Shown: in pieces, positions 33,416 to 44,014 of the stretch
Layout of the letters: the number at the start of each line of letters is the position of its first letter
How positions within the stretch are numbered: position 1 is the first letter of the stretch
Made by a program: the position numbers and the translations under genes
The notes under the pieces: model-generated
Database searches by the model: none
What the model was told of the DNA's origin: nothing
Seen by the model: only the letters and a program-made list of their open reading frames with translations
NCBI GenBank assembly: GCA_010015805.1
Contig: ML978131.1
Coordinates: 682,001 to 746,000 of the forward strand
Length of the DNA stretch: 64,000 nt
Reading direction: 5' to 3'
From: Rhizodiscina lignyota
Lineage: Eukaryota; Ascomycota; Dothideomycetes; Aulographales; Rhizodiscinaceae

Positions 33416-34230
33416 TCAGGCTCCCAGCAAGAGCCTGTACCACTTCGCAAAATTCTTGTACGACATCTCTGTCTCCTCTCCCGTATCAAAGTCTAGAAAC
33501 AAATGCTTGTAATTCTTTAGAATTTCAAAAATGTTCTGCTCGTATTCCGAATATCGTTTCTCAAACAGCTGCTCATCATCCGCCTCTCTCGCACGTGCCA
33601 GGTACCTTTCCTTCGCCAACCACTTGGAGCAATGTAGATGCAGCACTGCTTCTGGCTTCCCGAACGACCTCTCAAACTCCGCTGCTTGCGCGACATCCCG
33701 TGGGAATCCGTCAATGATGATGGCGCGTGGTGGTTGTGCGATGTGCTGGACCTTGAATTCAGGTCCATCTTTGACTGTCACAACTTTATTCTCATCGACG
33801 TTGTAATGCATGAAAATCTGCAGGACCAGCGGTCTGGTGCTTGTCGTTTTGTACAGATCCGGAGCAATGCGCGTCGCAATATGGTCCAACATAAGCGGGT
33901 CGTTGCACTCCAAGCCCAGTTCTACGGAATCAATCTTCAGCTTCAGAAGCGGCATGAGGACACATGCAGGGAGCAGGTCTCCGCTCGTGAGACGCGCTTC
34001 GACGATACTACGCAGGAGGTTCGGTCCTTCGCCTTGAGCATCGCGCACACTGCGGAGGAAGTCGCCCACGGACAGGTGGTAGAGATTGTGATCTTGAGCG
34101 AGGCGTTTGAGAAGGGTACCTTTGCCGGCACCCGGTGGACCTTGTACGTGAGGAGTTAGTATCTGCGTGTTCTGTTGAGGATTCAAATAGTTTGGAGTTC
34201 ACCTATTGCAAAAATGATGGGAATGCCCAT
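33416..34230 (-). CDS. Nucleoside monophosphate kinase-like protein paired with viperin
   Basis: Complement of join(33416-34140, 34203-34230), 250 residues. The first exon is 28 nt (MGIPIIFAI) and the 62-bp intron splits the P-loop codon, restoring GPPGAGKGT at residues 10-18. Other hallmarks are HLSVGDFLR (NMP-binding), DGFPRD before the second half, and a short lid with RAREADDEQLFEKRYSEYEQN, as in adenylate and UMP-CMP kinases. An unusual insertion of about 55-60 residues lies between the NMP-binding part and DGFPRD. Reaction: phosphate transfer from ATP to an NMP, exact base unknown. It is head to head with the viperin gene across 523 bp, like CMPK2 with RSAD2 in vertebrates, so a role in supplying or handling nucleotides for viperin is inferred. 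No mitochondrial presequence is evident. Confidence 0.88.
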
Positions 34231-34753
34231 CTTGTTCAAAGCTGAATGTGGGTGTCGTGGAGACTGATAGGATTGAGAGGTTCTGGCTCCAGAGCAGGTG
34301 GACGCCTTTATGTATGGCAGCGATAAGTCGTTTGTGGAGTGAGAAACGGGAAAGCAGAGGAGGTTGAAAGGTATTCAATGCCGCTTGCAATGAAGCAATT
34401 GAATGCCGGAAAATTGAAAACAGCAACAAGTATTCTCATCGTTCAACAATGGCAGGTAACAAATGCACATTCATGGTCAATGAGAAGCATTGCATGCTGG
34501 TGATAGACGCTGTGAGGGAATAATGAATAGACAAGCAAACCTGTTGCGCGAGCCTCTGCAGCTAAGAAGTGGCCATAAAAGTTGTCTCAAACAATGAGAC
34601 AATGATTCCCTACCAAGCATGTGCTGTCCAAGAACAGAGCATTCAAACACGCATCACGGAATATATAATCTACGCATAGACCGTAAGTCTCGTTGAATCC
34701 TTAAGCACTTGCGTCCAGAAGATCTCCGGGAAGATCTTTCACTTTTTGTCACG
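34231..34753. promoter_or_regulatory. Bidirectional promoter of the kinase/viperin pair
   Basis: 523 bp separate the two divergent ATGs. The short distance implies shared control. No clear TATA box or inducible element is recognised. A frame upstream of the viperin ATG is open from 34709 but starts with TTG, so the ATG at 34754 is used. Confidence 0.55.
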
Positions 34754-35788
34754 ATGTTGTCTTTCCAGCAAATCAAAGCCGTAGGAGGCATTTCCATCCT
34801 TCTCCTTGGTGGCGGCGCATACCTATTCCATGAGAAAATCGGCATCGTATTTACGAAGCTTCGGGATCGTCTTCCATTTTTGGCTCGTCGCAAAATTCCG
34901 GTCTCCGTCAACTACCACTTTACAAGGGTTTGCAACGCAGAATGCGGTTTCTGCTTCCACACAGCAAAGAGTTCCTACAGAGCTCCCTTGGAAGACGCCA
35001 AACTGGGTCTGCTCATGCTCAAACGCGCCGGGATGCGAAAGATGAATTTCGCCGGAGGAGAGCCGTTCATGTACCCCAAGTTCCTTGGCGAGCTGCTGGA
35101 ATTCTGTCGCGATGAGCTCCAGCTTGAGAGCATATCGATCGTGACCAACGGGACCAAGGTGACGGAGAAGTTCCTTGAAAAATACGGCCGATGCATCGAC
35201 ATTCTCGCCGTTTCGTGCGACTCGTTCGACGCAAAGACGAACATTGAGATTGGCCGCGGCAAAGACGGCGGAAACAGGGAGCAGCTCTTCCGAATTGCTG
35301 AGTGGTGTCATGAGTATGGCATCAAGTTCAAGCTCAACACGGTGGTCTGCAAGCTCAACTATCATGAGGACATGGTTGACACGGTGGAGCAGCTGGGTCC
35401 ATTCCGCTGGAAGTGTTTCCAGGTCCTGATGGTTGAAGGGGAGAACGACTCTGAGAAGACGCTACGAGATGTTAGGAAGTTCCAAATCACGGACGAGCAG
35501 TACGAGGAGTTCTGCGACCGCCACAAGCACCTGAAGTGCTTTGTACCAGAGTCAAACAAGGTGATGGCTGGTTCGTACTTGATACTGGATGAGTTTCTGC
35601 GTTTCCTTGACAAGGCTGACGGCATTGAGACTGCGTCTGACTCGATCCTTGAGGTTGGCGTACAGAAGGCTCTGGAGCAGGTCCGTTGGGATGAGGAAAG
35701 CTTTGAGAAGAGAGGTGGAGTCTACGACTGGAGCAAAGAAGTGGCAGCGGGATGCGGAGAAGGCTTGGACAAGGCGCTGGAGTTTTGA
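34754..35788 (+). CDS. RSAD2: Viperin-family radical SAM enzyme (fungal RSAD2 homologue)
   Basis: Intronless, 344 residues, close to human viperin (361). An N-terminal hydrophobic helix (AVGGISILLLGGGAYLF, residues 9-25) probably anchors it to the ER or lipid droplets. The radical-SAM cluster motif is C60-x3-C64-x2-C67, preceded by the viperin-specific NYHFTR. GGEP (101-104), SIVTNGT, ILAVSCDSFD, IGRGK, FKLNTVV, RWKCFQVLMVEGEN and VPESN-MAGSYLILDE all match viperin blocks in order. The conserved C-terminal RGGVYDWSK is present. Animal viperins convert CTP to the chain terminator ddhCTP, and prokaryotic viperins make several ddh-nucleotides. The fungal substrate is open. All key residues appear intact, so an active enzyme is expected. 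Confidence 0.95.
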   Translation: MLSFQQIKAVGGISILLLGGGAYLFHEKIGIVFTKLRDRLPFLARRKIPVSVNYHFTRVCNAECGFCFHTAKSSYRAPLEDAKLGLLMLKRAGMRKMNFAGGEPFMYPKFLGELLEFCRDELQLESISIVTNGTKVTEKFLEKYGRCIDILAVSCDSFDAKTNIEIGRGKDGGNREQLFRIAEWCHEYGIKFKLNTVVCKLNYHEDMVDTVEQLGPFRWKCFQVLMVEGENDSEKTLRDVRKFQITDEQYEEFCDRHKHLKCFVPESNKVMAGSYLILDEFLRFLDKADGIETASDSILEVGVQKALEQVRWDEESFEKRGGVYDWSKEVAAGCGEGLDKALEF

Positions 35789-42876: not shown

Positions 42877-44014
42877 ATGAAGCTCGAGCTTTCGGGCCCA
42901 CTGCCAGAAGCAGTGGCAAGTAAATTTCGTGAAGCAAAGTCGAAGGAGAGCCTCACATTCTCTCATACGGAGCTCGCAACAATATGCACGAGCTCCGGAA
43001 TACCGGTGAGTAAGTAGCAGTTCAAATTGTCGCTGGAAAATAAGTATGGTAGTTGACAAACATGGGATGGAACAGTTTCAGCTCCGCTACTGTCCAGCGC
43101 TTGCAAAGAAGCCTACACAAAATGACAAGCCAACTCCCTCTGAAAAGAAGCCCGACCCATTTCTAGACCCACCCGACGACCTCCTGATCACAAGGATCTC
43201 CTCTGCTACATCTTCTCACGTATTGGTATTGAATAAGTACCCTGTAATTGCCAACCATTTTATAATCGCCACAAGAGAGGACAAGCCGCAGACACACGTT
43301 CTAGAGGCAGAAGACCTTGAAGCTACATATCTGTGCTTGCATGAGTGGGAGAAAGATGGTGGAGGGAAGCGACTCTTCACGTTCTTCAATTCTGGAGAGC
43401 ACAGTGGCGCCAGTCAGCCGCATCGACATTTACAATTTCTACCGATAGAGAGCATGAAAGAAGGCGATGAAGACGGAGAATGGCAAGTCCTGTCGGATAG
43501 GATATCCGGTCGTTCAAGGAGGTACAGCGCGGGAGCTGCGGCCACAGGCCCATCACCCCAAACAGAACTCCCTTTCGCCTGCTTCTCTCGAGCGATTCCG
43601 CAAAATGCGAGTTCTGACCAGCTGTTTACCATCTACACCACGCTCCTTTCTGAAGCGACAGTGGCCGCAAGGTCTTATGCGCAAGCGCATCCAACAGATT
43701 TTGCGCTTCCCACTATCTCCGGAGAGTCTATTCCGGCACCAATATCTTATAACCTGGCAATGACTACGTCGTCAATGGTATTATGCCCACGAAGCAGCGA
43801 AGGAGTGGTATTGAAACAGCAGGACGGGTCAGAAGCCGGATATGTTGCCCTGAATGGCACGATTTTAGGCGGGACCCTAATGGTGAAGCTCAAAGAAGAG
43901 TGGGACATCCTGCGAGGAGATTCGACAGCCTTGGATTTGCTGCTGGCGGCAATTGGGATCCCTACAAGCGGTTCATCGAGCGAAGAGGTCGTCGAAAACG
44001 AGTCAAGATTGTAG
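42877..44014 (+). CDS. apa2: Ap4A phosphorylase (ATP adenylyltransferase, Apa2 family)
   Basis: Join 42877-43005 and 43076-44014, 355 residues; one 70-bp phase-0 intron joins SSGIP to FQLRYCPAL. The protein belongs to the GalT/HIT-like nucleotidyltransferases and splits diadenosine tetraphosphate with phosphate into ATP and ADP. The N-terminal domain has the VLNKYPVIANHFIIAT segment. The catalytic motif SGASQPHRHLQFLP contains the HxHxQ triad with the nucleophilic histidine. The C-terminal ATP_adenylyltransferase domain includes SYNLAMTTSSMVLCPR and GTILGGTLMVKLKEEW. Length and motifs match yeast Apa1/Apa2. Confidence 0.94.

Follow-up and report, generated by a model that had tools for sequence, protein, structure and literature searches.

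Viperin genes are already known to pair with nucleotide kinases in vertebrates and in bacteria, and a locus of the fungus Rhizodiscina lignyota (a dothideomycete of the order Aulographales, according to the taxonomy record) raises the question of whether fungi hold a comparable two-gene unit and, if so, with which kinase. The locus lies within a 64,000-nucleotide stretch of DNA (hereafter the window) on contig C11 of the 33.4-Mb host genome (G000). As read from the sequence, both genes are intact, and they are linked in two named genomes and, probably, in one more. The open reading frame (ORF) and the splice model agree with an initial annotation of this DNA that placed a viperin gene and a nucleoside monophosphate (NMP) kinase gene head to head across positions 33416–35788. 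The two genes are divergent, with 523 bp from start codon to start codon:

34754..35788, plus strand: viperin/SAND (radical-SAM nucleotide dehydratase), 344 amino acids, single exon, ends LEF; NF038283
34231..34753, no strand: divergent intergenic region, the spacing of the two start codons; candidate shared promoter
34203..34230, minus strand: kinase exon 1 of the splice model, encoding MGIPIIFAI and the first base of the next codon
34141..34202, minus strand: kinase intron, 62 nt, GT...AG, with a TACTAAC branch-site-like motif
33416..34140, minus strand: kinase exon 2, encoding the remainder, with P-loop GPPGAGKGTLL, HLSVGD, DGFPR, the catalytic arginines and an extra segment of about 65 residues

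The two genes

The viperin belongs to the family to which it had been assigned. It passes the curated profile NF038283 with 251.9 bits (cut-off 180), scores 385.3 bits against TIGR04278, under that model's cut-off of 450, and contains the radical-SAM motif CNAECGFC (CxxxCxxC) together with NYHFT, GGEP and SYLILDE, the invariant columns being taken from an alignment of 18 fungal viperins. Its N-terminus carries a predicted hydrophobic stretch. The nearest solved structures are 9dfw (E 4.8e-123) and the Trichoderma virens viperin 6b4c (E 5e-121), together with 9dfu, 9dgw, 9dfn and 7n7i at E of about 1e-121, and the window gene is the only viperin match in the R. lignyota genome. At the C-terminus, SYLILDE is in place, and the protein ends in LEF instead of the usual W. 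The pattern [LIM][DES][WF] closes 89 of the 120 viperins listed, and in three of these 89, R. lignyota included, the last residue is F. The covered part of PMC10623007 describes the C-terminal tripeptide as a loading signal for the cytosolic iron-sulphur assembly (CIA) machinery, with W preferred and F recognised too. LEF fits this CIA-targeting tripeptide, and the viperin therefore looks loadable and active. The fungal viperins (P0029–P0148) fall into at least two deep groups at odds with the fungal classes, which suggests an old duplication or horizontal transfer.

The spliced kinase, with its single intron, spans 33416–34230 on the minus strand and encodes a protein of 250 amino acids; P0001, a public R. 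lignyota sequence, matches it with 100% identity over 250 residues. Its description as a P-loop NMP kinase is borne out by a score of 73.1 bits against ADK PF00406, which clears the Pfam gathering score, and by a predicted model (pLDDT, a confidence measure, 85) that adopts the AK1/UMP-CMP kinase fold. The catalytic residues are kept in the alignment: R39, D153 and R157 occur in 24 of 24 aligned kinases, R188 and R205 in 22 and R192 in 23. The presumed base pocket has V34 in 23 of the 24 rows, and position 161 is Q in 13, S in eight, T in two and A in one, a combination that we take to match neither textbook adenylate kinases nor UMP-CMP kinases.

Just ahead of DGFPR, the R. lignyota kinase has an extra segment, some 65 residues long (approximately 80–147), that is missing from the 23 other aligned relatives; residues 105–117 fall under pLDDT 50 in the predicted model. 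An unspliced intron was considered as its source and rejected. None of the 22 in-frame GT/GC-AG excisions listed has the branch-site motif sought, the segment is retained in the public gene model, and its third-position GC (0.594, against 0.599 in the remainder) marks it as coding by composition. Three relatives (P0002, P0149 and P0150) have a long acidic C-terminal tail behind the kinase domain.

The kinase clade and its linkage to viperin

A housekeeping adenylate kinase, the identity that the initial annotation had singled out as fatal to its proposal, is ruled out by model scores, by trees and by the other ADK-family genes of the genome. P0001 fails the adenylate kinase models TIGR01360 (77.1 bits, cut-off 284.1) and TIGR01351 (74 bits, cut-off 168). 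It also fails the UMP-CMP model TIGR01359 (77.0 bits, cut-off 207.6), which only the genome's own URA6-type UMP-CMP kinase on C6 passes (244.7 bits). PF00406 genes lie on C8, C6, C5 and C11, the last being the window copy, and UMP-CMP-, ADK1- and ADK2-type genes are all present elsewhere in the genome. CMPK2, the kinase found beside viperin in vertebrates, is of the thymidylate-kinase kind, and an orthologue of it is likewise ruled out: the window kinase has no match to Thymidylate_kin PF02223 at E 0.01, and all PF02223 matches of the genome are confined to one place on C10.

Instead, the window kinase belongs to a separate, fast-evolving fungal clade with P-loop GKGTL[C] and HLSVGD, supported at 99/96 in one tree and 90/92 in a second, and placed on the UMP-CMP-kinase side of the tree. 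The URA6-type UMP-CMP kinase is its closest housekeeping paralogue (joining the clade at 100/100 in the second tree) and differs in having GKGTQ and HLSAGD where the clade has GKGTL and HLSVGD. Grouping of the clade with the ADK1-type gene on C8 is rejected (p-AU, the approximately unbiased test, 6.3e-6). Among the matches listed, clade kinases occur in 12 named species, namely Rhizodiscina, two Xylographa, Lecanosticta, Sphaceloma, Diaporthe, two Hypoxylon, Sclerotinia, Elsinoe, Neophaeococcomyces and Podospora, all of which we take to be Pezizomycotina (two of them looked up).

The claim of a conserved pairing is supported by linkage in independent genomes. Linkage was read from protein lists that give contig sizes and, for some entries, locus tags; the lists hold 120 of 2181 viperins and 120 of 990 kinases, out of 8000 candidates scored, and contig sizes were entered by hand. 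Xylographa pallens is a lichen fungus (class Lecanoromycetes), and its kinase MMC27_004319 (P0166) and viperin MMC27_004320 (P0109) have consecutive tags and share a contig size of 276,347 bp. In a third genome, the recorded location of kinase P0003 is a single ENA contig of 679,005 bp, as is that of viperin P0137; the record does not give their spacing. Three of 36 clade kinases thus match the contig size of a listed viperin (the window, X. pallens and the 679-kb contig), all on contigs of more than 250 kb. Among the 103 other kinases there is one such match, on a contig of 2,220 bp, a size at which coincidences come easily. For this count P0171, with a shortened loop, was retained in the clade, and P0028, P0182, P0239 and P0252 were placed among the others; P0252, an adenylate kinase 4 from a frog, has GKGTLC and groups with ADK2 in the tree.

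The strongest alternative holds that the kinase is a UMP-CMP-kinase paralogue with a role of its own, neighbour to viperin by chance or old synteny and sharing no function with it, in Xylographa as well. Adjacency by itself says nothing of function, only two of the 12 species with a clade kinase have a listed viperin among the matches listed, and the topology test does not reject a tree that pairs P0001 with the housekeeping UMP-CMP kinase. However, the genes are adjacent in both named species that appear on both lists, though one of these is the window itself and X. pallens is the sole independent test among them, and consecutive tags in this species, which belongs to a different class from R. 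lignyota, together with a shared contig in a third genome are hard to obtain by chance. Because the linkage recurs in this way, the pairing exceeds chance, and we regard independent neighbours as unlikely. R. lignyota and the sequence from the 679-kb contig share one deep group of the viperin tree (83/80), and Xylographa lies in another; the pair would therefore be old or would have formed more than once.

Possible roles of the pair

We consider it probable that, in filamentous fungi, viperin and kinase form a two-gene module: the kinase would supply or re-phosphorylate nucleotides, probably pyrimidines, and viperin would make their 3'-deoxy-3',4'-didehydro (ddh) analogues; within this complete reading the linkage part is the stronger and the substrate part the weaker. 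The candidate promoter between the start codons would give the two genes shared regulation and co-expression. Tethered through its hydrophobic N-terminus, the viperin would convert a nucleoside triphosphate (NTP) into the ddh analogue with the help of S-adenosylmethionine (SAM) and a 4Fe-4S cluster, the substrate being CTP and/or UTP if it resembles the viperins characterised from fungi and other eukaryotes. The kinase, a diverged UMP-CMP-side paralogue in the short adenylate/UMP-CMP kinase family, may phosphorylate NMPs or ddh-NMPs from RNA turnover and so keep the pool as di- and then triphosphate, the form that viperin uses or makes. According to the covered parts of two papers, eukaryotic viperins are restricted to CTP or UTP derivatives (PMC11249213) and the Thielavia terrestris viperin TtRSAD2 acts on CTP and UTP (PMC9642334); a kinase from the UMP-CMP side fits this substrate range. 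Both TtRSAD2 and T. virens 6b4c belong to the same enzyme family as the R. lignyota viperin, and the parts of the literature covered mention no partner kinase for either.

The parallel with vertebrate RSAD2–CMPK2 that had been drawn for this locus holds for the layout and breaks down for the kinase. To our knowledge, fungi have no interferon system. PMC10058120 describes human CMPK2 as lying next to RSAD2 in inverted orientation and as the presumed source of CTP; the fungal pair shares this arrangement and likewise has a kinase thought to provide the NTP. In contrast, the CMPK2 P-loop is GLDATGKT (PMC10058120), whereas the fungal kinase has GPPGAGKGT, matches PF00406 of the adenylate/UMP-CMP family and lacks a PF02223 match. 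Some bacterial viperins are paired with a kinase too: about 15% of the genes adjoin a CMPK2-like kinase of a different family from the fungal one, and a separate origin in bacteria is proposed for CMPK2 (covered part of PMC11249213). Because its kinase belongs to a type other than CMPK2, the fungal pair would imply that viperin acquired a nucleotide kinase separately. More tentatively, filamentous fungi may have evolved their own dedicated viperin partner, the fast-diverging, UMP-CMP-kinase-derived GKGTLC/HLSVGD family, recruited independently of vertebrate and bacterial CMPK2; viperin would then have gained a nucleotide kinase convergently in unrelated lineages, and the fungal pair would be an unrecognised ddh-nucleotide module, plausibly directed against mycoviruses. 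If so, the fungal pair with its non-homologous kinase would indicate that the making of ddh-nucleotides repeatedly calls for a kinase step, which would then be no accident of ancestry, and genetically tractable fungi would allow tests of the physiological role of fungal viperin and of any action on mycoviruses. A literature search found no paper on a fungal viperin–kinase link, in coverage that did not extend to the main viperin surveys, and we do not claim its absence from print; unless some survey already describes it, what is new at this locus is that the kinase paired with viperin is a non-orthologous one.

Alternatively, the modified nucleotide or nucleoside made by the pair could be a natural product or a signal instead of an agent of cell-autonomous antiviral defence. 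The covered part of PMC9642334 describes the fungal viperin as promiscuous and proposes it as a maker of antiviral natural products. We find this improbable for the present locus, where none of the ten further window ORFs scanned with Pfam is a typical biosynthetic-cluster core enzyme (the matches are to DUF3431, epimerase, DUF2838, MIF4G/MA3, dehydrogenase, Ap4A phosphorylase and FAD oxidoreductase, and three ORFs have none). That the kinase instead protects the host, for example by removing or trapping ddh-nucleotides, would suit its fast divergence and unusual presumed base pocket, but is very improbable, as kinase chemistry normally builds triphosphates up rather than removing them, and no precedent for a protective role was seen in this analysis.

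Neighbouring genes and loci beyond fungi

The Ap4A phosphorylase gene, which also encodes a nucleotide enzyme, lies at 43010–44014 of the window, about 7 kb past the viperin. Searches for tRNA genes and Rfam families gave no matches. Two viperin scans of viral contigs found no match, and the kinase scan of viral contigs gave one locus, L015, with 31% identity over residues 5–95.

Above the cut-off, viperin was found in one of 395 bacterial genomes and in 13 of 227 genomes of the phylum of the Heimdallarchaeota record. The neighbours of 18 prokaryotic viperin loci (207 frames around 16 distinct viperin places, with flanks of about 1.5 kb in most cases) were scanned with a P-loop pattern, a profile of the fungal kinase and BLAST with six adenylate-kinase-type queries, and none matched an NMP kinase. 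One prokaryotic locus, L069, holds a 134-amino-acid P-loop frame. An AAA_11-type (superfamily 1) helicase stands beside viperin in three of the 13 genomes from the phylum of the Heimdallarchaeota record (L031:2354-3790, L070:1243-2712 and L074:3-1430) and is possibly an archaeal viperin partner gene. At L065:625-2301, a frame of 559 amino acids has an archaeal viperin as its C-terminal part and a first half matching the C-terminal region of a type I restriction endonuclease, being either a fusion or a read-through frame. At L016:2515-4869, three opposite-strand frames upstream of the Heimdallarchaeota viperin resemble, by eye, CRISPR-associated sensors.
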